Shown piece after piece: positions 44,052-64,000 of a stretch of 64,000 nucleotides of DNA. The notes under the pieces are model-generated. The model did no database searches and was not told where the DNA came from. It saw nothing but the letters and a program-made list of their open reading frames with translations. Position 1 is the first letter of the stretch, and every line of letters begins with the position of its first letter. Source of the DNA: Lentinus brumalis (taxonomy: Eukaryota; Basidiomycota; Agaricomycetes; Polyporales; Polyporaceae); NCBI GenBank assembly GCA_001792895.1, contig MARA01000019.1:310001-374000 (forward strand), given 5' to 3'. Position numbers and translations under genes: made by a program.

Positions 44052-47000
44052 ATGCATAGCAAGCCTGCCAATATCGCAATCGTGAGCAACCTTTACTGCT
44101 CCCACTATTCGCTATCCTTGACGTGTTGTATAGGTCGGAATAGCCGCACAGTTGCCCAGTGGCGACTTTGCCAATCACGATCTCGACTATACTTCCTTTC
44201 TCGACTTTCTTATGCAGCAAGGGGAGGCGTACGAGAATATACCCCAATCCCGCTTCAACACCCAATTGTGAGCTCCTCTGCCGACGTCATCGCTGAACGC
44301 CGCTGAGCTTGCGCCCGTAGCTTACGTGGTCATTCTGTTGGGAAGGTCGCCACCGGCGTCGGTGCCTTTCTTAAGGATGTCGACCTATTCGATCACTTGG
44401 AGTTCGGAATGACTGCCAAGGACGCCCAGCTTATGCCGCTCAGCACTCGCAAGCTCCTTGAGCTGTCGTTCTTGAGCTTGCAGGACTCCGGCATTGACTA
44501 CCGCGGCAAGAATATAGGATGCTACATGGCCGGTGTCGCCCATGACATCTTCGCCGTGTCTGGACATGTGAGTCGTGCCCGGGTGCTAATGCGTGCTTGA
44601 AGCTAATCCACCCGAGACCAGGATGACGCAGAGGCGAAAGGCTCCTTCGCAGGTGCCCCCGCCATGCTGGCCAATCGGGTGTCTTACCACCTCGACCTTC
44701 GAGGACCCTCTGTACCAGTGGACACGGCGTGCAGTTCAAGTCTGTACGCAACGCACCTAGCGGTACAAGCCCTTCGAAACGAAGAATGCGAAGCTGCCGT
44801 CGTTGGTGGTTCTCAGATCAACCATAGGTTCGTCGGACGTCGTTTCCATACTTAGCTGCACCCTCATCTGTCTACGAAGGTTCACGGAGTGGTTGACATA
44901 CACGCAAGGTGGTATACTATCGCCGGACGGGAAGTGTAAACCTTTCGATGTTTCCGCAAATGGGTACGTCCGCCTGCTCTTCGCACGGCAGCTTATCTTC
45001 TCATCTTCGCTCTCCACAGATTTGGCAGAGGAGAAGGCGTCGTCGTTGTTGTGCTCAAGCCCCTAGAAGCTGCAATCCGCGACTGCGATCACATCTACGC
45101 GTCTGTGAGTGCCCGGCATCTTCTGTGGCGACATCACTCTAACCCAGGCCCAGATCCTTGGTACCGGTGTGAACTCGTCGGGATCTCTGGTGCCGGCGAA
45201 TGCCCCGGCTGCGCCAGCGCAAAAGGACGCAATGCTGCGTGCTTTCCGTCAAGCGAACCGCGATCCACGAGACGTCGACTTCCTCGAGCTCCATGCTACA
45301 GGTATTCTTGGACCATGTGGGTTCACGCGATGTCGGCTCATGCCTTGCCAACAGGTACCGCACAAGGAGACCCCACCGAAGCCAATTGGGTTGGAGAAGC
45401 GTTCGCGCGGGATGACAGCATCGTCATGGGCAGTGTGAAAGGAAACATAGGGTGCGTTCTACCTGGATGGAGGCTCCGCTCCCACAAGCTCTGACATTCG
45501 AATGCAGACACCTAGAAATAACTGCCTTCCTCGCTTCGTTGTGCAAGGTCTGCGGCATCTTCAGCAGTGGAACCATCCCACCAAACGTCAACTTCAGAAC
45601 CCCGAACCCCGCAATCAAGTGGTCGCAGTACAGGCTCTGTGTACCCGTCGAACCAGAGCCTCTCCGATGCCGTTCGGGGAACGGACGGTCATTGGTTGCG
45701 ATGACGAGCTCGGGCATTGGCGGAGCGAACGGACACGCGGTCCTCGAAGGCCCCCCAGAATTCAAACGGAGCGAACCTTTCTGGATCGCGAATACAGAGC
45801 TGCCGGTACTTTTCGTTGTTGGAGCGCTGTCCCCGCGGTCTGCATCTGCCCTCGGTGAAGCGGTGCTGATCACAGCAAGCGACTCTTCCGGGGCCGCCTC
45901 CCTCGCGAGACTTGTGGGTCGTCGTGCACGCTCCATGACATGGAGGTCCTTCGCTGTCACTGCGGGCGCCGGAAAAACGGCCAGCTTCAGCAAGCCGATC
46001 ATCGTCCCGAAGACCCGCCCGCCAATTGTTTTTGTGTTCTCCGGTCAAGGGACCCAGCATTTCCACAGTGAATTGAACCGTATCCTATCGTCTGCAACCA
46101 GCACGCTGACTACACATTCACAGTGGGCCGAGATCTCTTCCAGTCATGCGCGCCCTTTCGTCGAAGCATCCTCGAGCTCGACACGGTCTATGCTTCCTCT
46201 GTCGGCGCATCGCTCATTGAGACCACTGGTCTGTTCAGCGACTCCGCCTCTCATCCGACGGACACACTTGGCGACCCATGGCCGATTGACATCACGCTCC
46301 CAGCTCTGACGATGCTCCAGCTCGCTCTCGTCGATGCGCTCGCTGCCGCTGGAGTCCGTCCTGACGTGGTCGTCGGACACTCCGCTGGCGAGACAGCAGT
46401 CCTCTCGACATCCGGAGCTGCGTCCCACGCTGCGGCTCTCAAGCTCGCTATCGGGCGAGGACGCGCTCTCGCACTTCTCGAGAATGAGAAGGGTACCATG
46501 GCGGCGGTTTCATGCTCTCCCGAGAAGGCGAAGATCATCATTGGCGAGGTCAATGCCGAACTCGGAAAGGGGGTCCTTGAAATTGGATGTTACAACGCTT
46601 CCGAAGCTGTCACCCTGTCCGGCCAGGAGTCTCACGTCGACCTCGCCGTTGCGAAGGCAACTGCTGCAGGCATCTTCGCCCGCAAGCTCAAGACACGCAT
46701 CCCTGTCCATTCAGCCATGATGGAGTTGTGTCGCGATGAATTCACGAAACAACTCTCCGGCATCTTCTCTGACGAAGTTGACGCATGCGTGCCCACGGTG
46801 TCCACGTACTCTACCGTAACTGGACAGCTCTTCGGTGATTCTCTCGACGCGCAGTACTATTGGGACGGCACTCTCCGCCCGGTTCTCTTTCAAGCCGCCG
46901 TCGAAGCCATTCTCTCGCACTACAAGGGTGCCACATTCGTCGAGCTCGGACCTCATCCGGTCCTCACGAGTTACCTTCGCTCTTCGTCGGAAGGTTGCGA

Positions 47001-50000
47001 TAACATCACCATCACTTGCCCTCTCCGCCGATCGCGGACGTTCCAGCCCGGGTCAGAGACCTCCGAGTTCTTGACTGCGTTGGGACAAGTCGCCGCAGCG
47101 GGTCATAATGGTGTCGACTTTGATGCCCTGTATGGCAGCGCAGGCCCTTTCACCGGCAGCCTTCCGGAGTACCCTTTCGCGCCCAAGCACGTCCCATGGT
47201 ACATCCATACACCCGAAACTGTTCGGCAACGTCAGCCTCGCAACGGCCCTCTCAACTACCCCCAGCTTCGAGTCAACGTGAATACGCATCCCGAGCTCGC
47301 TGACCATGTCATCAAAGGAGAGCCTATTATGCCTGCATCTGGTTTCATTGAGATGGCAAGTGATCACGACTGTCTTGAGAAGTCTTGGCTCATGATGACC
47401 ATCGTTGCAGGCGCTCGAATTCGGTGCAGTGGAGCTCTACGACATTGAGTTTCATGGACTGCTTCCGCTGTCGTTAGAGCGTCCCGTTCCACTCCATGTT
47501 GAGCTGAACGGAACTCGATGGAGCATCTCTAGTGCCTCGGTGACGGATGCATCGCAGGCATGGCCCATGCAGGTGCGTCAGCATGCGTATATTGCTACCA
47601 TTCTGAAGTCATGCTCATGTCTGTGTAGTACAACCGACGTCATGCCACCGGATTCCTGTCGATGACTTCAACTCAGCAGGACATGCCTAAGCTGGACATC
47701 GACTCAATTCGCAGCTGTATGAAGCCCGTCAAGATGAACGGTATGACAGCTTGCTGCTGCTCCTCTTGATTTCGCCCATGACACGCGTCCGTCAGATTTA
47801 TATGCTGGGATGGCCCATTTCGCTCAGTATGGCCCGGCTTATCGACGTATACAAGAATGTTATACCGTCGTGAGTGCAGATGGTATCGTCGAGTCGCTCG
47901 TCAAGCTCCGTGGATGCGATGCCGACCTCCCCAAGTGAGTCCGTAGTGCAGGCCCGAACCTAATCTATTTCAGCTGAGCTTGTTCTTTTTAGTCTCGCCG
48001 ATTACCGCTTCCATCCGGCCATTCTTGATGCCGCAATCCATATCGTCGTGCACCCTATCATGACTGGGAATCACGATCGCGATCTCTACCACCTTCCTTC
48101 TAAGGTCGCGGCATTCCGGATGTGCTCTTCCGTCGAACAACAAGATCTTTCGAGCGGTCTGTACGCGCACGCAATCACCACTGGCTGGGCTCCAGGTGAG
48201 TATACCTTGTGCCAAGTGTTGGTTCAAGCGGGTCTCATATGTTTACGCAGACTGTATCTCATACAATATCACGATCACCGATGAGTCGGGAGAACCACTC
48301 TGTATGTTTGAGAGACTGGAAGTGGCGCAACACGGCTTCTCAAGGGCAACTGTGAAGCAACGTTACGACGTCGTTTATCAGCCCTCTGGTCTCGTTCTTC
48401 CCTCGCTGAGCGAAGACCCTCCTCTGCCGTTCGTCACTGCAGCTGTCCCCTCTCAGCAAAGTCACCACCATGGCCTCGAATTTCATGCCGTTGGCGCCGT
48501 TCCTATCTCGCCTTCAACGTCGTCTGGATCAGACTGGGACGACGCGACTCAGTCCACAGACGTGTCATCCAACCGCGGAGACAAAGGCCCTTCTCTCATC
48601 CTGGAATACGTCAGGGGCGAGGAGATGCGGCTCCAGGGCCCGATAGCATCTCTAGATCCTCGGGAGCACGCGTCACTTCTCTTCGTTGCCGAGGACGGTC
48701 TCAACGGTGACGCCGCTCTTGGTTTCACTCGGTCTCTTCGGAAGGAGTACCCAGCGTGGACTGTCCGAGTCGCCGTTTTTGATTCCTCGTGGACGCGCCA
48801 GCAACGCTTGTACGCCTCCGATGTCCTGCTCTGGCTTTCTGAAACTGAGCGGGAGATGAGGGTCGACAAGGACGGTGCTGTTCATGTGCCGCGCATCACG
48901 CTCGCATCTGCGCCTTCCGACCGTTTTCCCTTCGACCCTAAACTTCCTTGGGTGCTGCGCAATGGAGAAATTGCCCAAACGTATGCTCCACGATCCCTCG
49001 GAGATAGGCGTATCGTGCAAGTGTCCGCAGTCCATCCGCATGGCGGCCATGTCTGGGCGTTCTCAGGCACAGTTGAAGGCTCGTCCCACCAGGTTGTAGG
49101 CGTCACAGCCTCGCCAATTTCTAGCCATCTCGAGGTTCACGAGGGCTCGATTGCGGAGCTCCAAGATGATCTCTCAGGCTTAATCTTCAGTGGCCCATCT
49201 CTTCTCGCACCTACCGTCGCAGCACTCGTCATTGGTCCTAACGCGTTCTCGCAGCCCTCTCGTCTCCAAAACAAGCGAGCGCTGGTCTATGCCACGCCTT
49301 CCTCTTCCGATGGAGAGCTCGCTCATGAGATCCAGTTGGTGCTCAGTCGACTCGGTGTGGAGGTCTCCTCCCTCACGTCCTTGGACGACGTCGCGTTGAA
49401 CTCTCAATACGCGCGGAAGCCACACTTCATCTTGGCTGGCGCATGTGATCGGCACGACATGGCGGTCTTGCGGTCCCTGTTGCCTGACACGGGACACGCT
49501 CTCTTCTGGAACGACCCGGACGTCGGTATTGCGAAGATGCTTGCGGATGATCCTTGGATCGTTGGAGATGCGGTGCGCGCGGCGCTCGAGTACAGTCGTA
49601 GTCTGGCACTTCCAGCGATCACGTACACTCCGCTATTAGCCGCACTGGGAGACGTCAGTGCAGACGTGACCGCGCGGCCTCCGTCTCTGTTCGACCCGCA
49701 CAAGGCGTACCTGCTCGTCGGTGGCATTGGGAGTCTGGGGCTGCACATCGCTTTGTGGATGTATGACGTGAGTGTAACTAGTCGTTACAGCAGAGTTACA
49801 CTGACGAGAGGCGTAGCATGGGGCCAGGCACCTCATCTTGACGTCTCGTTCGGGACCTGAGAGCCTTCGGAGCCGAGGCGACTTCATTGGGAAGAGGATC
49901 CTCGACTACCTCAGCAGCCGCGACGACCTCGTCGTGCAGGCCTGCGCTGTCTCGGCGACGTCCGTCGAGCAACTCGAAGCCATCCTCAAAGCCTCGTCGG

Positions 50001-52383
50001 TGCCCCTCGGCGGTGCTATCATCCTTTCGGCCTTGCTCAACGATCGTCCCTTCGCGTCGCAGACGCAAGAGAACTTCGACAGCGTGTTCCCGCCCAAAGT
50101 CGATGCCTTCACCACCCTGACTCGTGCCGTCGATGTCGCGTCGCTCGACTTCTGCGTCACCTTCTCATCGATCTCGGGCATGTTCGGCAACCCGGGGCAG
50201 ACGAGCTATGCAGCGTATGTAGTGTCCAATGCTCTGGTGACTGATGTTGCTGACGAAGCTGTAGTGCGAACACCGCGCTCACGGGTGCGATACGGGGCTA
50301 TTCGAACGCTTTCTCCATCGTCTCGCCGATCATCCTGGACAGCCGGATTCTGACGTTGACAGACGACTCGTACAACACTCGGGTGCGGCACATGATTGAC
50401 TGGGGCATGACTGCTCGAGGTGAGTGCCACTCCGGGACGTTCAGAGCCCAAGAGTTGACAGATCGTCTTCAGAACTGTGCAGTTACATTGGAGACGGGAT
50501 TCGCAAGTTGCGCGAAGGCCCTGTCTGGCAGTACATCCCAGACTTCGACTGGCGCATCGTCCGCGACAACATGGGGCCTTCTCAGCTCTATGATCATCTC
50601 GTTCAGCATGAGGAGGAGGCGTCGACCGAGGATAGCGCGAGCGGCAAGCCATCTCTCGTGCAGATCGTCTGCAAGGTTCTCGATCTCCAGGAGGCCGACG
50701 TTACGCTTGACGTCCCTCTCACTTCATACGGTCTCGACTCGCTCTCCGCATCCTCACTGTCCTATGCCCTCCGCTCCCTTGTCTCCGTCTCCCAGCTCCA
50801 GCTCCTCGCTGATCTCACGATAGCCGACCTCCAAGCACGAATGGAGAGCGCCGAGTCCGAAGCCCTGGAACACGCGAGTGCACCTGCGCAAGATCCAACC
50901 GATCCTGCTTCCGAGCGAGAAGAATACGTCGCCAGTCACGTCCGCGAGATGCAGTCGCTGCTCGAGGAGCTCAGCGCGACCATCTCCCATCGGTCCCCGC
51001 CTGCTGATGCTCCACCGAAGAGGCAGTCGCAGGTCGTGCTCGTGACGGGCACGACAGGAAGTCTCGGCTCTCATATCCTCGCCGAGCTGCTTTCGACTTC
51101 GAGCTACGACAAGGTGATCGCATTGGTGCGACCTGGGCGACAGGGCTCCACGAGGGATCGACAACTCGGGGCATTCACGGAGAGGGGACTGGACACCGCA
51201 CTGCTCGATTCGTCGCGTTTTGTGCTCGTGGACTGTCCTTTGGAGGGAGAACACCTTGGTCTGGATCCGGTGGTGTACGAAGAGGTGCGAGACAGTGCTT
51301 CTCGTTTCGCTACATGAGTCTAACTTATGCACAGCTCCGAACATCTGTCTCTCACATCATCCACGTCGGTGAGTCTCGGCGTCCACCTCCCATACTCGTC
51401 CTGAAGGTGTTGACTTCTTTGCATAGGTTGGCTTGTCAACTTTGATCTCCCGCTCTCCTCGTTCAGAAGCACGCTTCTCGCTATGCGCGGCTTGTTGGAC
51501 CTTGCAAGCGAGGCGCTCGAGTTCGGTCCTGTGTCGTTGCTGTACGGCAGCAGCTCTGGGATCGTCAGGAGTGAGGCTTGTACTAAGTGTCACTACGCAT
51601 ACGCATACTCATGAATACTACAGATTACACGCACGCCTTTCCGCCCACAGAGCAGCTGCTTGAGGCCGGCATAGCAGTTGGGCAGGGTTACAGCGAGTCG
51701 AAGTGGGTTGCTGAACAACTGGTACAAGTCGCAGCAGAGCGTACCTCCGTACGAACTACCCTAGTCCGGATTGGGCAGCTATCCGGCGGTGTGAGCGGTG
51801 CATGGAACTCGTCCGAGTGGTTACCTGCCATGATCGCCGCAAGTTCTGTGCTTGGCAGTCTTCCCGGAGGACACGGGGTGCGTTTAACAGGCTGTTTGGT
51901 TATGAAGCCAACTGACGACGTGACTATTAGCCGGTAGCATGGCTCCCAGTCCCGACGGCCGCATCAGCAGTCGTCGACTTGATTGCGGCCCCTCATAGGA
52001 TTATTCACCTACGTCACCCGCACCCGGTTGCGTGGTCCGACATGATGGCACACTTCTCTCAAGTTCTGCATCTGCCTATCGTGGACTACCTGACATGGAT
52101 CTCCGACCTTTCCACAATCTTCGAACGTGTCGACGGTCCTCAGACAAAGCACGCCAAGACCGGCCTCAGTCTGCTCGACTTCTTCCAGTCTAGTTGCACG
52201 AGTGGAGACGCAGCGGGTGCTCCTGTTACGGAGAACAACGGACTATCTATTCTCATGGATATGGGTGAGAGCAGCATGTGTTGCTCTACTCTCCGCAACC
52301 CAGGACTCGAGCAATTACGCGTCGAAGATGTTCGGAAGTGGGTCGAATACTGGAGGCGCATCGGAGCTTTACCATCTCTCTGA
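44052..52383 (+). CDS. Reducing polyketide synthase with terminal reductase, PKS-1
   Basis: Iterative type I PKS of roughly 2,350 residues in about 20 exons, all joins in frame. KS (44.05-45.8 kb): active Cys in DTACSSSL at 44730, His in ELHATG and in [11 protein letters not shown] (46.0-47.1 kb): FVFSGQGTQ and GHSAGE at 46375. DH (47.2-48.4 kb): [10 protein letters not shown] with His at 47305, and [12 protein letters not shown] 48.9-49.6 kb region resembles an enoylreductase fold but lacks a glycine-rich NADPH loop, so it is probably inactive. KR (49.7-50.35 kb): LVGGIGSLG and Tyr in GQTSYAAANTAL. ACP (50.6-50.85 kb): phosphopantetheine Ser in YGLDSLSA at 50739. Terminal thioester reductase (51.03-52.38 kb): [11 protein letters not shown] and YSESK. 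No methyltransferase seen. Reductive release to aldehyde or alcohol is inferred from the family. Confidence 0.93.
49980..51560 (+). repeat. PKS-1 arm of an inverted near-identical tract (partner 62400-64000)
   Basis: This stretch of PKS-1, from within KR through the ACP to the middle of the reductase, matches PKS-2 in reverse orientation with only scattered base differences, including the intron that begins just after 51373. Similarity ends abruptly at the intron after SSSGIVR (about 51560). The other end of the tract lies beyond the window. Confidence 0.9.
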
Positions 52384-52927
52384 AAGAAGTAATTACCCTC
52401 ACCACCGACTGTAACATGTACCAGTAATATCAGAGGGTATATGGTCTGGAACGTGCTGTACCACAACGAAACCAGACTCTGCGGCCACCGGCCCTTTTCG
52501 AGATGAGCAAACACGATCGCGATCAATCATTGCACGCCGGCCGAACACCTGGTCTTGCTATCCCACTTTTACTTGCAGGGCATGGTCCAGAACGACATAA
52601 GACAGCGCTGAGCGGGCAGGGCTTTCAAACGAAGCCTCCTTCTCAACGGTCCATTGATGCCCTCAGTGCGTCGCCATCTGGCTGTTGTCAACTTCATTGT
52701 TCGAGGTGGACCAACGCTGGCACACGATCTTCCAGGTGCCGTCCCATACACGAAGATCTAGTTCACAGGGTTCTCGAGGAGATCTCGCACTAACGCACAT
52801 AAGTGAGGCACGTTCTAGCCTTCGAATTCACACAGCACATCCTATCACGGCGCACAAGGATAGAAATTGAGTACTTGTCGAGAACACCTGTCTGCGGGTA
52901 TGTTTCGTCGCCGATCCTGAGATAGTC
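52384..52927. other. 3' spacer between convergent PKS-1 and GMC genes
   Basis: About 545 bases between convergent stop codons. Only 3' UTR-type sequence is expected; no gene seen. Confidence 0.45.
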
Positions 52928-55922
52928 TTACAGGCCGTGATCGAGCTTGATGATGTCGGCCGCTGAGGCAGGGGGTGAATAAGAGAGAGATAGGCCAGTA
53001 GAAACGAGTTCACGAACCTTGTTCCGCAATCGCGTACGTAATAGCTGGGCCTCCGAGTCAGCGATCTTGACCAAGCTCGATGTGGAACTATCGATCTCAC
53101 CTTGAGTATGCGCCGCGGTCAGCAGAGGCAAGGTGGACAGGTCTGCGACCCGGATATTCTTCGTGCCGTACACCTGAGTTCATAGCTCAGGACCAGGGTC
53201 CTAGACCACTCGCCAGACCATTGTACGATACCTTGAGGTTAGGGTCAACAACACCTCCCTTCTCCTTGGGTAACATTGAACAAGTTCCGCACGCGTCTAC
53301 GCAACATACGCTATCAGGCTACGTCGTCGACAAATTGGAATGGAACGGTGCTTACGCCAGGTCGTCGAAACGCAGTTCCGTACATGTTCTGGGTTTGAAG
53401 GCGGTAAGACGCCCCGATCGTCGGAAAGAAGAGGTGCACACTTACCTCGCAGTTCTTCTCCGTTCACTTCCGGGCCAGGAAGAAGCTCGCCTTGACCGTA
53501 CGTCTGCCACTCGCTGGTGGCCATAGCCTTCCGGACGAACTTGAACGAGTCAACGAGAAGCTCAAAATCTATATCTTCTCCGAGATAGTTGGGATCGATG
53601 AGAGGCTGGTCCTTCGGATCGTTTGAGCCCGTATGCTAACCATGCGGCCGTGTCAGAAGGAGGATCGCATAAGTCAGCACCATACTCACGATTGTTCCGC
53701 GTGAGAAAGGATGGCCGAGGACTGGAAAAATGCCAGCCAAGGGCTTCGGAGGTCCTGCCACGGGACATCAGCGAAAAAGCTTATGGTTCTCACCATATTC
53801 CAGTGGTCTCACCCGTCGGATGAATGTTCACGGGGAAGATGACGAGTTCCATGTCAGGGATGTTTCGGTCCTTGAGCGCCCTCAATTGGTGCTCGTATTG
53901 AGCCTTCAAGCCAGCTGGCATCATTTCATCCTCGGATGCGAGCTTGCGCTCAATTGTTTCGGCAAGGGCATCAACTCGTTCGGAAATCACTTGTGCGGGC
54001 AGGAATGTGACACCGCTGGAGGCCAAAGCGATAGTGCTGCCGTCATTACCACTAGAGAACCGCGCGGCTCAGAGCTTCCGCAACGATATGAAAGGCTACG
54101 AGTGACTCACTATAGTTTGCCCAGCTTTGCTTGAACTTCCGGTAGTCGGATTGTATCGCTGGTAACAAAGTCGTGCCCTTCTTTCATTGCTGTCATAACA
54201 ATGAGCCGACGATCTCACAAAGAATGACATGAACTTACAGACAACAGAACCAGTGAATATGACATGATCTTGAAGATTCATCCCGACTGACGGGAGGTCT
54301 AGCTGCACAGGAATACCAAGGGGTTCGAGGACATTCTTGTCACCGATGCCGCTGAGCTCAAGTACATGCGGAGACTTGATCGTTCTGTTGGGCACTTCAG
54401 GCACAGCAAGGATGTCAATACTTACGACCGGCACATACCCAGCACAAAGGAGAGCTTCTCGGGACACGTTGACAGTGTGTATCTTCCCATCATGTTCAAA
54501 TTCAACGCCCGTCGCCACTACCTCGCCTTTGATCTTTGTCAGAAGGCGACGGACATACGCGCCTGTAAGGACCGCAAGGTTCGGTCGGGAAAGAGCTGGA
54601 ACGAGATAGCCCTGGTCGGACTCAGCGATCGTATGGCGGAGAAGAGGGCGTCGATGCTCACGCTGGCAGCAGTGCTGCGATCTCCCGTTCTCCCGTCGAT
54701 GGTTGACATTGACTTGAATGTTCCGTAGAGCTGGTTCTGGGTAAGCACACTGAACGGGATGCGTATGCATACTGTTGCAACGCACGTTACCGCCGGTCTA
54801 GATACTCATACGTTAGTCCCTGAGCCATTTACAAGCTACATCGCGCCCAACGATTCGCACTCACCCCGTCGTCGTTTATCGGCACACCGAGGGCTTCCAA
54901 GGACTACTCAAGTCAGAGCCGTCTAATAAACATAGTGACGCGACGCTACGTGCCTTCTGGAAGACAGGTTCAATCCCTGATACCGTTCTCGCGAAGGAGA
55001 CGGGAACGGGGCCTAACAGTCAACGTCCTCAGTGATCAGAATCGAGCGGAAGCTCTGCTGACACATACCAGAAGTTCCAACGGACGTCTCCTTGTATGTT
55101 TCTGAGTACTGAGGGAAATTACTTCCTGGGGTCCTGGTATATCTGCGCGGATGCTGAGTGGGTACTCTCTGCGCTGCTAGTAAGAGGCACACACATCTCA
55201 GAGCGTTTAGACGCTTCGAAGAACCGCTCCCAGTTCCATCCCGGATTTCCCAGATTCTCTATCGCTGTACACGAAGTCAGAGATCAATTGATAACTCGCG
55301 ACTGACAGCCGATCACCTTCTAGTTCTTCGCGGTGTGGTTTGATCCAAAAGAGGAAATTCGTACAGGAGCTTCCTCCTAGCCCTTTACCTCTACGTAGCG
55401 GCTCTTAATGTTGGACTCCAAACTGGAGGAGAATGGCGTACCGGGTCCAGAAAAAGCTCTCGTGTTGAAGTCCGTCTGGGGTTGTCACGCCATTCTTCGC
55501 ATGCTTCTGTGGAGTCGTACGAAATACCCAGTCGTACTCCGGGTTGAACATCTGCTTCATCCACCCATCCGGAACGGCTACCAGTGCTTCGTGAGCAACA
55601 GAACAAGTGACATTAAGTTGGATGATGTAGACATACTGATCAGGGGATCATCGAAGTGTGCGTTGCCTGCCTCCAGCAAGGCTACCGTCACGCCCGGATT
55701 CTCAGACAACCTAGATGCAAGGACGCAGCCGGCGACCTATGTTAGAGTAGGAGGTCAGCATACTGGCCAGCCGTATCGAGAGGGCGGTCCTGCTCTTACA
55801 CCTCCGCCTACCGAAGGTGTGTCAGTGTTCGTACAGAGTGGGACAGGCCAAAACACACCTATCACAACGAAATCAAAGGTTTTTCCGGAGACTTCCTCGA
55901 TGCTCGCGATCTTGTTAGCCAT
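52928..55922 (-). CDS. GMC oxidoreductase next to PKS-1
   Basis: FAD-dependent glucose-methanol-choline enzyme on the reverse strand, with more than a dozen introns, all joinable in frame. Start MANKIASIEEVSGKTFDFVV, then the FAD loop IGGGVAGCVLASRLSENPG, NPEYDWVFRTTPQKHA, first GMC signature GKGLGGSSCTNFLFW, LGNPGWNWERFF, TIDGRTGDRSTAAS, RPNLAVLTGAYVRRLLT, second signature TIKSPHVLELSGIG, and LPSVGMNLQDHV. The C-terminal catalytic-His segment TTWHACGTCSMLPKEKGGV needs an intron placed inside the His codon (about 53300-53360). VYGTKNIRVADLSTLPLL and AITYAIAEQAADIIKLDHGL, stop at 52928, follow. It converges on PKS-1 with 545 bases between. A role in oxidising the PKS product is inferred from position. 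Confidence 0.85.
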
Positions 55923-56440
55923 CTTTCAGTCCTTTGTGCTAGATGTGCAACGAAGAGAGGTCAGCTCGAATTCGGCCGACGCAGAGAACTGGCACTTACC
56001 GAGAGGAGGAGGAGGAGAGACACTCGGCGTAAGTAACTCGAGAAATCCGCGTGTGAGCGCATTTATACGCTAGTCTCTGGCGGTTGCGCGCAACGACAGC
56101 CCATGATGCATGCAGCATCATCATGATCATAACACACGATGGCTGATTACCGCGGGTCACCGCCCTTTCGCCGCCTACTTTCAGTATCACTAAAGTTCAA
56201 CGGAAGACTTAGACGGGAACCAGATATCCCCGATCAGCTCTTTCTTTCATGAGTATCAGGCGAGCGACTGACTGTTATTGCATTGTTGTATGTAGGGCCC
56301 AGGCAGTGGACGAACGAAAGACATGCTAGTGAGCGCTGCGTGTCCGAGCAGCCCGGAGCGCCTTGGCGCTTAGACAAGCCGGGCCACGCGGAAGTCCGTC
56401 CTCCCTCGGCCCCGTCTCAACATTGTCATTGTCATTGATA
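55923..56440. other. Spacer between GMC gene and hAT element
   Basis: About 520 bases holding the GMC promoter. No gene or repeat recognised. Confidence 0.4.
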
Positions 56441-59400
56441 GTGTTGCCGCAAGCTAAGCCGCTTGCCTTGCAAGTTGGCCAGCTTGTGATCGGCTTGGTG
56501 CCCAAGCTCCGACAAGCCAGCGGGCAAGCTCGGCTTGCCGCCCTTTCCGTATATGGAATGCGTAGGCGCGGGGAGACCGGGGAGACGAGATGGGAGAGCG
56601 GGACATACTGTATGGGCCCTCCGGGGCCAGATGTTGTATGGTAACTACTGGAATACATTGCTCTACTCGTTCTGCAAGAGCTCCTCGAGCTCCGAGATCT
56701 TTCCCGCCTTCAGCAACTCCTGGACAGCGGTATCAGTCACCTTGCCCTCTATGACATAGTCCACCTCCTGCGCAACCAAGGACGATGTGAAGGAAAGTCG
56801 CTCCTGCTTGAAGGAGTACTTCAAGATCTGTAGCTCCGAGAGGAGCTCCGGTGACATCTTGGTACGTCGGTCAGTTATTGTCTGCTTGCTTGAGGAGAAG
56901 ACTTCTTCGGATGGGACAGCGGAAGCCTGGGCGGGAAGAATATCTAACGCGGCACAGAAGAGAAGTGGGAAGGAGTTCTCGCGATGCTGAAAAATAATAT
57001 CATGGGTCATAAGCAGAGAGTCGGAAGGGAGCTGATTGATGACTTACCTCCCAATGAAGGATCAAGTCAAGGGATTGACCCTCCTCGGAGTCCTCGTCAA
57101 TGGTCCCTTCGGCGATGTACCGCCCAAACTCGTGCTCAGCTGCAGCACGGTCCGAGCGCAGAGCGGCGGCTTCACGGTGTCGTATGTCTGCCGAAGACAC
57201 GTGGGTCCTCGGAGATGGAGGAACTTCGGAGTTCGGGGTCAATGATGCATCAGGCAGGGTGCCGGGAGGAGTGAGCTCGAAGTCCAACCCGGACATTGAG
57301 GTTGCACGGCGAGGCATAGTGCTCAAGCTGCGGAGAAGGGATGCGCCTTTCCGCAGTGCCCCGGATGCCGCACTAGCTGCTGAGGTGGGGGTACTGTACA
57401 TAGGAGGGCAAGTGCCATGGGTCGGGCCAGACATGGACCTCGAGATGATTGGGGGAGCCCGGGGTTGCAGCGCTGCCGCCGCATGACGACGATGCGTGGC
57501 AAACGATGTCATCTGTATGGTGCGTTAGATAGAAGCGTATAAACTACGGCCCCGGAGCTGCGACATACCAGTTCAAGCATCCACTTCTTTGCCGCGGCTG
57601 CATCAACAGGGGACCAGTACTTCTCCATCCATTCAAGCTTGAATAACGGATTCATGACTGTTAAGATGTGTGTGAGCTAAGTGGGTTATACGAAGTAGAA
57701 GGTCCAGATGACGCACCCATGGCAAGAGCGTATATGCGGGTCTTGCGCGCGAGGTTGACGTACTTCTCAAGAAGCTCGATGCCAGCTTGGATATGTTCCG
57801 CCATTTCTGGTATCGTGGTCTTCAGCTGGGCCCATGCCTGCATCGTATATTCGAAGACAGGGAGTGCCATGGAAATCGTGGGCGTGCGAGATGAAGATAG
57901 AAGTTCCTGGGCGGCATGTGGTACCATGAGAACCTGATGGATGTCCGTGAGAACCCGTAGTTGCATGGCCGTCAGTGCATGGTCAGCGAGATCTTGATGG
58001 TCTTCACTCTGAAGGAACGTTCGTATAGCCTGGTAATAAGTCAGTATGTACGTCGAGATAACCATAGATGTACATAGGACATACAGGGTAGAGTGATAAG
58101 GTGCGGCCGACCATCAGGTGAGTGGAGGACCATCGAGTATCGCAATCACGGAGCAGTTGTCGCTCGGCAATCAGGATCCCGACTCCCCAGATGCTGCCTT
58201 TGTTTCCCTCGACAATAGTACGTTTACGTTGGAGATCTTCGCGCCGGGTGCCCGACTTGCGACAAACTCCAACGAGGTCGCGAACGGACTTGATGGGGTC
58301 CGAGGCAAGAGCACCAGAGTAGGCATAAATATACTGCTGCGGGACACCTCGGTTTCTCAGCTCGGACTGGACCTCGAGCGGTATGACCGGCCTCTCTTTG
58401 ATGCTCTTGAGGACAGCTTTGACAGAGCGGTTGATTGTGTGAGGGAAGCATCTGTTCAGGACAAACCGGTGTCCGTCTAATCGGCATACACCCTGATGCT
58501 GCTGGACATCTCACGTACCTGACACGGTTACCCTTGGCATCGAAGACGACATCGTGCGCTTCAAAATGGTCCTCGAGTCCCTCCATTTTGGTGTCGTTGT
58601 TCGAGGCGTTGTCCATAGTGATCGTACCAACCTGATCATTTATACGTCAGTGGCCTCGAGTGTGCAAAGACGATCTGAATAACTAACCTTCTTTTCAATG
58701 CCTTCCTCTTGAAGGGTCTTGAAGAACGCCTCGGCAAGATTGCTGCCCTTGTGGTGTCCTTCCAGATGCCTGAATGCCAGGAGCCGTGTCTTAAGAGTCA
58801 GACGCCGATGCTCGGGGTCCCGGACGAAGTAATGGGCCGTCACCGCCATGAACGAGCGGAGAACTGGGTCCGTCCAGAGGTCCGTTGTGAACGAGACCCG
58901 ACCCAAAGCATACTTCTATAGAGAGCGGTAAGCTAACGTCAATATTATGGGGCGGATGACATACCTGGAGCTCTTGCCGCAACTCCTTCTGGTAGGCCTT
59001 GAAGTGTGTTGTGATCAGCTCCCGAAGCTTCGTGCGATGAGGGATGTCGTCATCGGTCAGATGCCCAGCATCATAGAGCAAGAGCTCCCGAAACTCTGCG
59101 CACTCGAGACAGTTCAGCGACTGAAACAGGCAATGACGCGTCAGCAACCAAGACTATTGATTCAGCGAGACCGCGAGAGTGAGCGTAATACCTGATCATC
59201 AACAACAACCCAGCGCACGAGGAGCCAGTCGAAGCGGTCCTGTGAGAACGGCTCTTTGGAGCCCCCACTGGCGGAGCCCGCTTGGCGATTGTCATGCCGC
59301 TTCAGCCCGAGCGTGTCCACGGCCCTCTGGTAAACCTCGGGTGGAACTTCTCCAGATGCGCTCGAACAGTGCTTGTGATACCATTGTTGTTCCTCCATGT

Positions 59401-60877
59401 CTTCCATATATCTTTGCTATTAATTTGAGTCTCTGTCAGGCAACATATGCGTTCCAGATGTCGAGTACTCACTGAGAACATGCCTTGCAACCGACATACT
59501 CATTGTTCACCTTTGCATCAAGAGGTGTATTGTGATCGTCTGGAGGGACGGCAGGCTGCGCTTGAGAGTCGAGTCCACGGAGCCAGTACCAGACATCCGT
59601 AGCATTGGTCGAATCCCGGCTGGCCTCTTTCGAAGGGTCCGTGGCAAGTAAGGTCTCCGTTGAGGGTGCTGCGTCAGGCATGTCCATGACTGGAGGCCCA
59701 AGGGTCGGAAAGGGAATGGGTAGAGAGGGAGGAGCGCATGCCGGAGTAGAGATAGGGCCCGCACCGCATGTGGCCGCTGCAAGACGGTGATGAGTTACCG
59801 TTGTTGCATCGACACGAGCGCGCTTGGCCGTAGAGACCGGTGCCTCCGCGGCCTTCCGTTTGCGACCGCCGGAGGCCTGTGGACTGTTCACAACCTGCCC
59901 GGTAGAGTTCTGAAATGCTTGAGGAGCCGCGTTAATGAATGTAAAGTTCTAGGGACAGTGATTAGTCCGACAATCAGCATAACAGACATGCCATTAACAC
60001 TGACCTGGGACGGTGCCGGTGTCCAAGGCGGGCCCGTGTTTTCTGATGGATATGCAGACTGATCAAAACATCAGTAGATAGCACGAAGATATTATATGCA
60101 AGTAGATGCTCACATAGCTAGATATTGGTGCTCCTGACCCCATACTAGGCATGCTCATGGCGGAGGTCGAAGGCACATGATAGTCTGCATGCGACCATGT
60201 CGGTGAGGGCGCGTGCGCGGGGTCATATGAGGCGTAGTGCGTCGTCGGATGCAGCGGTGGAGGTGCGAAGCGTGAGGGTTCACACTGACAGACATGCGGA
60301 GCAGGACAAGAGCACGGCATCTACGAGAGCTGACACCCCAACCCATGCTCATTCATGCCTCTATATACCACAAATTGCTCGCTAGATTGAGGGAATAAAT
60401 GTGATCATGCCCCGAGTATCGTGCCTCTTCCGAGACGATGCCGACCACAGCGACGAAGACGGAGGATGGCTGGAGAGTCGGGAGCGAGCTTCAGGTCCTC
60501 CTGAGCCCGAGGTGCGCAGTCTATACGAGGCTACGAGCTATGCAAACACAGCTGAAACGCCCGAAGGGTCGGAGGATAGATGACATGAGTGACGTGAGGA
60601 GAGCCAGGTAGTATTGGAAGGGGTCTGAGGCTCTGAGCAGTGAGTACATTCAAAGAGCACAACATACAAAGAGAGCGAGATGGACGAGCATGTCTACGGC
60701 CTATGACGTCGCTCCTCCCGTTCCGGCCACATCAAGAGGTCAGCCAATGAGCATCGTGAGAGCTCATGAATAAGCAGCTGGCAAGTTGTCCCAACCGGGC
60801 CAAGCTCTGACAAGTTGGCCGTGTGAACAAGCTCGCGCAAGCCAGTTCGCAAGCTGGCTGGCAACTTGCGGCAACAC
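56441..60877. mobile_element. hAT-superfamily DNA transposon, apparently complete
   Basis: The element is bounded by perfect 13-base terminal inverted repeats: GTGTTGCCGCAAG at 56441-56453 and its reverse complement at 60865-60877. Inside both ends, over about 100 bases, short motifs recur on both strands (GCAAGCT, CAAGTTGGCC, GGCTTGCC and variants), as expected for subterminal transposase-binding sites of hAT elements. One multi-exon transposase gene fills the interior. I could not find a convincing 8-base target-site duplication: the flanks CATTGATA and AAATTGTC differ. It lies between the two inverted PKS genes. Confidence 0.85.
56663..60320 (-). CDS. hAT transposase
   Basis: Reverse-strand gene of about nine exons. 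The N-terminus (MPCSCPAPHVCQCEPSRF) is Pro/Ser-rich, followed by a basic stretch GGRKRKAAEAPVSTAKRARV. A BED-type zinc finger has CKAC, then TVRAHLEKFH. The catalytic core has FTTDLWTDP (first Asp), TITMDNASNNDTK (second Asp), CFPHTINRSV (the CxxH motif of hAT) and LRDCDTRWSSTHLMV. VLTDIHQVLMVPHAAQELLSSSRTPTI follows. The C-terminal hATC dimerisation region reads FPLLFCAALDILPAQASAVPSEEVFSS, ending ELEELLQNE. A low-complexity insertion (57000-57450) precedes hATC. All joins tested keep frame and no internal stop was needed, so the element may be autonomous. Exon borders were chosen by motif continuity. Confidence 0.88.
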
Positions 60878-61591
60878 AAATTGTCAACAACTTCATGCAT
60901 GATACTCATAATGCATGAGCGTATCGGGCTCCCAACCTATGCATTTTGAAGGTGCCTACTGTATTCTACTATCGTCCGACATGGTCACTCGTGGATGAAG
61001 CAGGGATAATAACATAGATTCCTGGCCACGAGAAGTGGACAGGTTTTGGAGGGAGTAATGGCGAAGTCTTTAGGAGTGGGAAAGTGGGGCCCCACATGGT
61101 TTTGCGTTTCAGACAGTCGTGCAGGGTATGTGTCTCCCACAGTGCACCTGCAGATGGTTATCGAAGGCCACCAGCCAGAAGCCAGAAGCCACCTGGGTGA
61201 ACACGCCCGAGCAGGCTGCTGCATAACGTGGCATCTGGCGCAGCTCCGGCGTGTGGTCAAGAAGAGTCCGAGTACTCAGCTAATATGAGCAGAGTCCGGT
61301 ACCGGACTGAGTTACTGTAGCGGCGGTGAGGGCGGGCGAGAGCCCGCCCAAGCAAGCCGCGCGCGGTCAGAGATATTGCATCTGCCATTCTGCGCGACAA
61401 CTGCAATCTTTCTGTCCGACTCCAAACGACTCCAAAGAGCAATACTAGCAATACTGTATCATCCGGTGTGGCCAGGTTTGCCCGGAGGGGCCATGGCTTA
61501 TACACAGGCAATGAGCAAGGTATACATACAAACATACATGGGTGCCTGCATGCTACATGGTATCGTACAAGGGTATATAGCAGGATATTTA
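60878..61591. other. Spacer between hAT element and PKS-2, with short palindromes
   Basis: About 715 bases. It contains a 16-base perfect palindrome AGTCCGGTACCGGACT at 61293-61308 and a stem-loop GGGCGGGC-GAGA-GCCCGCCC at 61330-61349. The stem-loop could act as a terminator-like or structural element in the 3' flank of PKS-2. No gene seen. Confidence 0.5.
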
Positions 61592-64000
61592 TCAGACCGA
61601 CGGCAGGCTCCCAACGCGCCTCCAGTACCCAACCCAGCTCCTCACATCTTCAAGACCGAGCTGGTCTAGTGATGCATCACGCAGGACGGAGCAGCGCATG
61701 CTGCTGTTCCCGAGGTCCATGAAGACGGACAAGCCGTTGTTCTCGTACGCGCGCGCCAGGGAAGCATCGGGGCTCGAGGGTTGGAGAGAGCCTATCAGGC
61801 TGATAGCAGTGTTCGCGTACTTCGCGTTGCGAGTCCCTGCAATCTCGTGAACCGTGGAGAGCTTGGAAATCCAAGTCGAGTAGTCTGTCGTCGGCAGGTC
61901 TAGGATGGTCGAGAAGTGGCCCATGATATCGGACCAAGAGACGGGGCGCGGATGCCGTAGATGAACGATGCTGTGAGAGGACTCTGTGCCGACGAACTCT
62001 ATGATGGCAGAAGCTGCGGTCTGAACGCGCAGCCATGATGCAGGCTAACGCAGATGGCGTCAGTTCTGAATGAGCGAAGTGTACCATAATATGGACGTAC
62101 CCCGTGTCCGCCAGGAAGGTGGCCCAACACCGTGCTCGCCGAGATCATCGCGGGCAGCCATTCTGACGAGTTCCAGACGCCCGTCGCGCTCCCCGTGAGT
62201 TGCCCGATTCGAACGATCGTCGTTCGTATAGAGGTGCGCTCCCCCGCGGCCCGAACGAGCTCTTCTGCAATCCACTTCGCTTCGCTGTACCCTTGTCCGA
62301 CAGCTTTGGCAGCATCCAAGGGCTGCTCCGGCGGAGGAGGCAGGTCTGCCGAGTAATCTGAAGAGCTGTGAGTTACAGACAGGAAGATTCTGTTGAAAGT
62401 GACTCACTCCTGAAGATCCCAGAGCTGCTGCCGTACAGCAACGACACAGGACCGAACTCGAGCGCCTCGCTTGCAAGGTCCAACAAGCCGCGCATAGCGA
62501 GAAGCGTACCCCTGAACGAGGAGAGCGGGAGATCGAAGTTGACAAGCCAACCTATGCAAAGAAGTCAACACCTTCAGGACGAGTATGGGAGGTGGACGCC
62601 GAGACTCACCGACGTGGATGATGTGAGAGACAGATGTTCGGAGCTGTGCAGAAGTTAGACTCATGTAGCGAAACGAGAAGCACTGTCTCGCACCTCTTCG
62701 TACACCACCGGATCCAGACCAAGGTGTTCTCCCTCCAAAGGACAGTCCACGAGCACAAAACGCGACGAATCGAGCAGTGCGGTGTCCAGTCCCCTCTCCG
62801 TGAATGCCCCGAGTTGTCGATCCCTCGTGGAGCCCTGTCGCCCAGGTCGCACCAATGCGATCACCTTGTCGTAGCTCGAAGTCGAAAGCAGCTCGGCGAG
62901 GATATGAGAGCCGAGACTTCCTGTCGTGCCCGTCACGAGCACGACCTGCGACTGCCTCTTCGGTGGAGCATCAGCAGGCGGGGACCGATGGGAGATGGTC
63001 GCGCTGAGCTCCTCGAGCAGCGACTGCATCTCGCGGACGTGACTGGCGACGTAGTCTTCTCGCTCGGAAGCAGGATCGGTTGGATCTTCCGCAGGTGCGG
63101 TCGATCGTTCCAGGGCCTCCGACTCGGCGCTCTCCATTCGTGCTTGGAGGTCGGCTATCGTGAGATCAGCGAGGAGCTGGAGCTGGGAGACGGAGACAAG
63201 GGAGCGGAGGGCATAGGACAGTGAGGATGCGGAGAGCGAGTCGAGACCGTATGAAGTGAGAGGGACGTCAAGCGTAACGTCGGCCTCCTGGAGATCGAGA
63301 ACCTTGCAGACGATCTGCACGAGAGAGGGCTTGCCGCTCGCGCAATCCTCGGTCGACGCCTCCTCCTCATGCTGAACGAGATGATCGTAGAGCTGCGAAG
63401 GCCCCATGTTGTCGCGGACGATGCGCCAGTCGAAGTCTGGGATGTACTGCCAGACAGGGCCTTCGCGCAACTTGCGAATCCCGTCTCCAATGTAACTGCA
63501 CAGTTCTGAAGACGATCTGTCAACTCTGGGCTCTGAACGTTCCGGAGTGGCACTCACCTCGAGCAGTCATGCCCCAGTCAATCATGTGCCGCACACGAGT
63601 GTTGTACGAGTCGTCTGTCAACGTCAGGATCCGGCTGTCCAGAATGATCGGCGAGACGATGGAGAATGCGTTCGAATAGCCCCGTATCGCACCCGTGAGC
63701 GCGGTGTTCGCACTACAGCTTCGTCAGCAACATCAGTCACCAGAGCATTGAACACTACATACGCTGCATAGCTCGTCTGCCCCGGGTTGCCGAACATGCC
63801 CGAAATCGATGAGAAGGTGACGCAGAAGTCGAGCGACGCGACATCGACGGCACGAGTCAGGGTGGTGAAGGCGTCGACCTTGGGTGGGAACACGCTGTCA
63901 AAGTTCTCTTGAGTCTGCGACGCGAAGGGACGATCGTTGAGCAAGGCCGAAAGGATGATAGCACCGCCGAGGGGCACCGACGAGGCTTTGAGGATGGCTT
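61592..64000 (-). CDS. Reducing polyketide synthase with terminal reductase, PKS-2 (3' part; 5' part beyond the window)
   Basis: Reverse-strand partner of PKS-1, entering the window within the KR domain and ending at 61592 (SWVGYWRRVGSLPSV). It shows the KR part with GQTSYAA, ACP ([11 protein letters not shown], about 63230), terminal reductase loop [11 protein letters not shown] (about 62920) and GYSEAKW. From the right edge to about 62400 its DNA, introns included, is nearly identical to PKS-1 at 49.98-51.56 kb. Left of 62400 the protein is clearly diverged from PKS-1 (for example MGHFSTILDLPTTDYSTW against [18 protein letters not shown]). No frameshift was seen in the visible part. The same domain order as PKS-1 is expected upstream but cannot be seen. 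Confidence 0.92.
62400..64000 (-). repeat. PKS-2 arm of the inverted near-identical tract (partner 49980-51560)
   Basis: Inverted counterpart of the PKS-1 tract. Left of about 62400 the intron and exon sequences no longer align closely with PKS-1. The tract continues past the right edge of the window. Confidence 0.9.

Follow-up and report, generated by a model that had tools for sequence, protein, structure and literature searches.

How can two polyketide synthase (PKS) genes that have diverged over most of their length carry a common stretch of two kilobases that is almost identical, introns included? The question is raised by an inverted gene pair, here called PKS-1 and PKS-2, in a 64,000-nucleotide stretch of Lentinus brumalis DNA (the window; positions 310001–374000 of contig MARA01000019.1, which has 768,929 bp in a genome of 53.4 Mb and 136 contigs). 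The sequence comparisons reported here point very strongly to ectopic gene conversion: a stretch of PKS-1 is very likely to have overwritten its homologue in PKS-2, probably without crossover, after the split from the Cerioporus squamosus lineage.

The inverted gene pair and its island of near-identity

PKS-1 (44052–52383, + strand) is predicted to contain 21 introns and to encode a reducing PKS of 2403 amino acids (aa) with the domain order KS-AT-DH-KR-ACP-R. PKS-2 is cut by the window end, and its 3′ part occupies 61592–64000 (− strand). Contig positions 353501–393500 were fetched as well, reaching 19.5 kb past the window end, and window numbers are carried on beyond 64000 as extended coordinates. 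On this scale PKS-2 spans 70017–61592 (−; contig position 380017 at its far end), with 21 predicted introns and 2402 aa. Both gene models come from a script using codon usage and splice sites; three introns of each gene were placed manually by comparing the two genes. Nineteen of the 21 modelled introns pair by position. The other two of each gene, all in the DH part, have no positional partner and are probably model errors, those of PKS-2 falling beyond the window end. For instance, the orthologue of PKS-2 from Polyporus arcularius HHB13444 has a segment, around residue 900, that is missing from the PKS-2 model. None of these errors touches the tract described below.

Comparison of the window with itself matched 49977–51575 to 64000–62403 in inverted orientation, with 98.0% identity over 1599 bp; this match ends at 49977 on the left because the window stops within PKS-2. 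On the fetched contig, a change-point model placed the island at 49504–51575 (+) in PKS-1 and at 64473–62403 (−) in PKS-2, the part of the latter inside the window being 62403–64000. Here 2018 of 2071 columns match (97.4%, 53 mismatches), compared with 66.3% DNA identity in the rest of the genes. An earlier note on this DNA had described near-identical exons and introns over at least 1.58 kb from about 49980; the near-identity holds, and the size is corrected to about 2.07 kb. A model with two levels of identity improved on a single level by 523 log-likelihood units, and none of 300 permutations of 30-bp blocks reached the observed score (at most 49.4 in permuted data and 515.9 in the real alignment on that grid). 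Exact matching extends for up to 402 bp, and in 500 column permutations no run exceeded 55.

Identity changes abruptly at both ends of the island, as is expected of ectopic gene conversion. In a global alignment, windows of 100 columns are mostly 50–83% identical across the genes outside the island. Identity is 95% in the window from 49527, remains at 91–100% over two kilobases and is 68% in the window from 51527. The profile along both full loci is thus stepwise and not gradual, as the earlier note had anticipated for the 3′ side, and a second step is present at the 5′ end. Positions within 2 log units of the best were 49501–49509 for the left edge and 51563–51575 for the right, an uncertainty of a few bases and of 12 bases, respectively. 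The 5′ edge (49501–49509, +) falls within an exon and precedes the KR match. The 3′ edge (51563–51576, +) falls where exon 20 ends, at the donor site of intron 20 (51571–51623), close to where a step had been noticed (about 51560 in PKS-1 and 62400 in PKS-2). Position 51564 is the last mismatch inside the island and identity is gone from 51576 onward; intron 20 is 54% identical and intron 19, immediately upstream, is 100% identical. The flanks are collinear on both sides, and the tract holds one single-base gap, in intron 17. Such replacement in register, without change of length, again agrees with ectopic gene conversion. When the whole genome was searched at the DNA level, the PKS-1 and PKS-2 copies of the tract were listed and no third copy. 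The inverted pair with an abrupt identity boundary is therefore real, and stronger than is visible within the window.

Introns and synonymous sites

The five introns inside the island are 88, 98, 96, 98 and 100% identical between PKS-1 and PKS-2; the fourteen position-matched introns outside it are 50–61% identical. Within the island, synonymous divergence (dS) between the genes is 0.080 and non-synonymous divergence (dN) is 0.006. Upstream, dS is 1.86 (1.78 leaving out the doubtfully modelled DH stretch, and 1.48 in the last 1.2 kb), and downstream it is saturated (proportion of synonymous differences, pS, 0.78). Neutral sites, both synonymous and intronic, have been homogenized in the tract, as conversion predicts. 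Because the introns are near-identical inside the island, neither constraint on the protein nor a spliced RNA template explains it. Conversion mediated by cDNA is ruled out by the introns common to both copies. Partial duplication, which the earlier note had offered beside conversion, is also ruled out and is not needed, since the tract substitutes for its homologue in register. The low dN relative to dS inside the island is consistent with purifying selection after the most recent conversion.

Conflict between trees of the tract and of its flanks

Both PKS proteins were aligned with 21 homologues, picked from 120 listed of 999 found. Trees were built for the part upstream of the tract (N part) with 13 of the 21 homologues, and for the tract and the part downstream (C part) with 11 each; P0002 and P0012 of HHB13444 were left out of the latter two because they have only 31–32 and 0 residues there. 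The informative relatives are two proteins of C. squamosus, P0001 (Csq_a) and P0003 (Csq_b).

In the N-part tree, PKS-1 groups with Csq_a (support 100/100) and PKS-2 with Csq_b (100/99). A grouping of PKS-1 with PKS-2 was rejected in this part by the approximately unbiased (AU) test, run without HHB13444 (p = 2.4e-125). In the tract tree, PKS-1 and PKS-2 group together (99/96), with Csq_a next (100/98); PKS-2 with Csq_b was rejected (p = 0.00095), as was a group of PKS-1, PKS-2 and Csq_b (p = 0.019). In the C part the arrangement of the N part returns, with PKS-1 and Csq_a at 94/91 and PKS-2 and Csq_b at 87/83, and PKS-1 with PKS-2 was rejected (p = 0.006). The tract tree therefore conflicts with the trees of both flanks, as conversion predicts for separate trees of converted and unconverted parts.

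The same pattern is seen in pairwise identity. Over the N part, tract and C part, PKS-1 is 81.1, 85.6 and 81.0% identical to Csq_a, and PKS-2 is 72.1, 85.5 and 67.2% identical to it. A column was counted as diagnostic when Csq_a and Csq_b had different residues and the sequence in question shared one of the two. Columns of PKS-2 that match Csq_a number 230 of 376 in the N part (170 more match neither), 155 of 177 in the tract (36 neither) and 30 of 52 in the C part (30 neither). For PKS-1 the corresponding counts are 354 of 428 (121 neither), 155 of 177 (36 neither) and 53 of 58 (23 neither). The two C. squamosus paralogues are 63, 62 and 65% identical over the three parts and have no island. 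This suggests that the conversion belongs to the lineage of the window.

Probable ectopic gene conversion and its direction

The double step, the homogenized neutral sites and the tree conflict together support the explanation that had been considered simplest, ectopic gene conversion between inverted paralogues. PKS-1 and PKS-2 would be old, linked, inverted paralogues. After the split from the C. squamosus lineage, the region of PKS-2 from KR through ACP to the first half of the reductase would have been overwritten by its PKS-1 homologue, by a DNA-templated, non-crossover route. PKS-2 would then retain its own KS-AT-DH part and its own C-terminal reductase half, flanking a KR-ACP core from PKS-1.

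PKS-1 is most likely the donor and PKS-2 the recipient. Both tracts resemble the C. squamosus orthologue of PKS-1, which makes PKS-2 the exception in this part. One-way transfer from PKS-1 with unexchanged 3′ ends is favoured by the trees and by the diagnostic columns. Leftovers of the old PKS-2 tract were sought among nine listed differing residues, and in none did PKS-2 match Csq_b while PKS-1 matched Csq_a. A third genomic copy as donor was discarded, as only two copies are listed in the genome. Crossover between inverted copies inverts the spacer and exchanges the 3′ ends. A reciprocal crossover in the tract is improbable on these grounds, the C part being 81% identical to Csq_a in PKS-1 and 67% in PKS-2. 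In the downstream tree the 3′ ends stay with their own 5′ ends, from which we infer that a non-crossover route is favoured.

Several points weigh against this account. GC content at third codon positions (GC3) points the opposite way from the trees: it is 0.72 in the tract of both genes, 0.69 and 0.71 in the PKS-2 flanks and 0.62 and 0.59 in the PKS-1 flanks. This argues weakly for PKS-2 having been the donor, or for repair with a GC bias; no difference is seen in intron GC. The branch of Csq_b is long (0.38; that of Csq_a is 0.10), which leaves the orthology of Csq_b with PKS-2 less certain, and the C-part clades are supported yet not starred. The groups for the AU tests were chosen after the identity table had been inspected, and the evidence base is one genome assembly with the proteins of relatives. 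Finally, the longest identical run outside the tract is 20 bp, short for a start of recombination; with no longer run in the present flanks, conversion could hardly have begun anew in recent times, a difficulty that would not arise for an island kept similar by repeated conversion.

One event or several

From 5′ to 3′, dS in the three thirds of the tract is 0.141, 0.072 and 0.022, and differing neutral sites (synonymous plus intron, rounded) number 27/212, 12/255 and 4/246. A single conversion event, with the gradient arising by chance or by uneven mutation, is possible, although we consider it the less probable history. It is the simpler one; the limits of the segments were picked after the data had been seen, and with synonymous sites alone the first and second thirds differ at p = 0.06 and the second and third at p = 0.09. 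However, the first and last thirds differ at neutral sites with p = 2e-6, an even spread of the differences is rejected (p = 0.01), and the 402-bp gap free of differences has p = 0.0004. Ectopic conversion tracts in yeast average 200–500 bp in the studies covered by the relevant part of a review (PMC3924818). The graded tract of about 2 kb exceeds these averages, which suggests several conversion events. More than one event is thus probable, and the latest would have been nearer the 3′ end.

It can be proposed, tentatively, that the stretch from KR through ACP to half of the reductase maintains itself as an island of concerted evolution. Through recurrent conversion the two copies of the island would stay similar enough to recombine, while diverged flanks would drop out, fixing the edges. 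For bacterial modules of PKSs and non-ribosomal peptide synthetases, one study puts forward a comparable cycle in the legend of its Figure 4 (PMC4256081). In the current study, a within-species survey covered 66 pairs from 28 species, selected by name among 120 listed proteins (999 hits in all), and considered the longest run per pair. Three pairs had a run of 150 aa or more with an identity of 92% or higher (Fomitopsis serialis P0022/P0052, Gymnopilus 91/93 and Hygrophoropsis 90/94). In none of these three, out of the 66 surveyed, was the run confined to KR-ACP-R, and a general hot spot there is therefore not supported.

Other explanations

Conversion in the reverse direction, in which PKS-2 sequence replaced that of PKS-1, is improbable. 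It would account for a tract GC3 that is like the PKS-2 flanks and above the PKS-1 flanks, but in the trees both tracts fall with Csq_a, the orthologue of PKS-1, and the grouping that it would call for (PKS-1, PKS-2 and Csq_b) is among those rejected above. In addition, the high share of tract columns matching Csq_a (155 of 177) is as in the PKS-1 flanks and unlike the PKS-2 flanks.

An assembly chimera, with the sequence of one copy placed into both genes by the assembler, had been named as the main rival and is very unlikely. Near-identical inverted repeats, here about 11 kb apart, are generally known as a classic site of misjoining. However, the 53 differences between the copies in 2071 sites follow a gradient, so that neither plainly copies the other. 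A separate assembly of another strain, HHB13444, contains orthologues of both genes: over the upstream part, identity is 97.8% between P0002 and PKS-1 and 97.5% between P0012 and PKS-2. Both are recorded as partial; their sequences run 32 and 31 residues, respectively, into the tract and then stop, probably at contig ends. That both stop at the same place makes a chimera in the present assembly less likely. The simplest reading is that the HHB13444 assembly, which we take to be built from short reads, collapsed at the shared tract, and this strain would then have the tract too. Searches for the rest of the two genes gave 17 matches at E 1e-20 for a query from the tract to the C end (841 aa) and two matches at E 1e-10 for the C end (293 aa); none was named HHB13444, and some matches carry no organism label. 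The unfound pieces speak neither for nor against a collapse.

An old duplication with strong purifying selection limited to KR-ACP can be dismissed: protein identity of 98.7% over 602 tract residues, against 70% upstream, might be expected of catalytic domains, but the homogenized introns refute it, synonymous sites are homogenized too, and between the C. squamosus paralogues the tract is no better conserved than its flanks.

Domains within the tract

Pfam matches in PKS-1 were KS, AT, DH, KR, ACP and NAD_binding_4 (the first scan used an earlier model, and the C-terminal part was rescanned). KR, ACP and NAD_binding_4 were matched in the C-terminal part of PKS-2, whose N-terminal part was assigned by alignment to PKS-1. 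This is the domain order of a reducing PKS with a terminal reductase, and release of the polyketide by reduction is predicted for both enzymes. A KS family search of the genome listed matches in four places: PKS-1, PKS-2, one on contig C43 and one on contig C1.

The Pfam spans of KR (49705–50292, +) and of ACP with its GLDSLS motif (50655–50831, +), exons and introns included, lie wholly inside the tract. The reductase match (NAD_binding_4, 51042–51963, +) begins inside it, about 140 of its 236 residues being covered, which bears out the domain content first proposed for the converted part. The motifs TGTTGSLG (51045) and YGSSSGI (51543) are within the tract and GYSE (51686) is outside; in this type of reductase, these motifs belong to the cofactor site and the catalytic residues. 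On the favoured direction, PKS-2 would be a natural chimera with the ketoreduction and carrier core of PKS-1, which may affect its product.

Neighbouring genes and repeats

A hAT-type transposase gene lies between the PKS genes (56663–59687, −; Dimer_Tnp_hAT, E 1.8e-10) and is the sole copy listed in the genome; it is a conceivable source of breaks. It is framed by a perfect 13-nt inverted repeat (56441–56453 and 60865–60877), which may be due to chance, and no clear target-site duplication was seen at this gene. Genes for GMC oxidoreductases lie between the PKS genes (about 53120–55736, −) and beyond PKS-2 (about 74.9–77.5 kb extended, +); their inverted DNA similarity is 68–82% and patchy, without a near-identical island. 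Another inverted similar pair, with 65% DNA identity, is found at 71.6–72.8 kb (+) and 80.2–81.3 kb (−) extended, the second being a DUF6534 gene. A repeated gene family with DUF4139/DUF4140 occupies 4.9–19.1 kb and about 28.5–29.9 kb of the window in both orientations, with long matches of 70–79%.

Comparison with known systems

Linked paralogues with a homogenized tract and diverged flanks are also described, in the parts of one paper that deal with them, for the tandem fog-2/ftr-1 genes and inverted hsp pairs of Caenorhabditis (PMC3966223). The present case differs in its tract of about 2 kb, in flanks without an identical run above 20 bp and in concerning fungal megasynthases. Recombination likewise homogenizes domains of bacterial modular PKSs while the rest diverges, as sections of two papers relate (PMC4256081; mycolactone genes, PMC2569948). 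There it acts among assembly-line modules, whereas here two whole intron-bearing PKS genes are concerned. The F. serialis pair P0022/P0052 is a possible second conversion case in other domains. These PKS paralogues, on contigs whose listed lengths agree (915012), have a 96% island in a 71% background; it covers KS-AT (residues 91–976), at the protein level only, and its edges are less sharp than those reported here. Searches of open-access papers listed no report of conversion between basidiomycete PKS paralogues.

Implications

The process of conversion is well known. This case is unusually clear, with both edges visible, and the gradient lifts it above the routine. If the island does sustain itself, matched KR-ACP cores would be kept in two synthases, leaving the chain-building and release ends free to diverge. 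Basidiomycete PKS trees built from KR, ACP or whole proteins can mislead. PKS-2 would represent a domain graft made by nature within a fungal megasynthase, and both of its junctions have been retained by the organism: the first precedes KR and the second lies within the reductase, between the part with TGTTGSLG and YGSSSGI and the GYSE motif. These two junctions would offer PKS engineering natural cut points.

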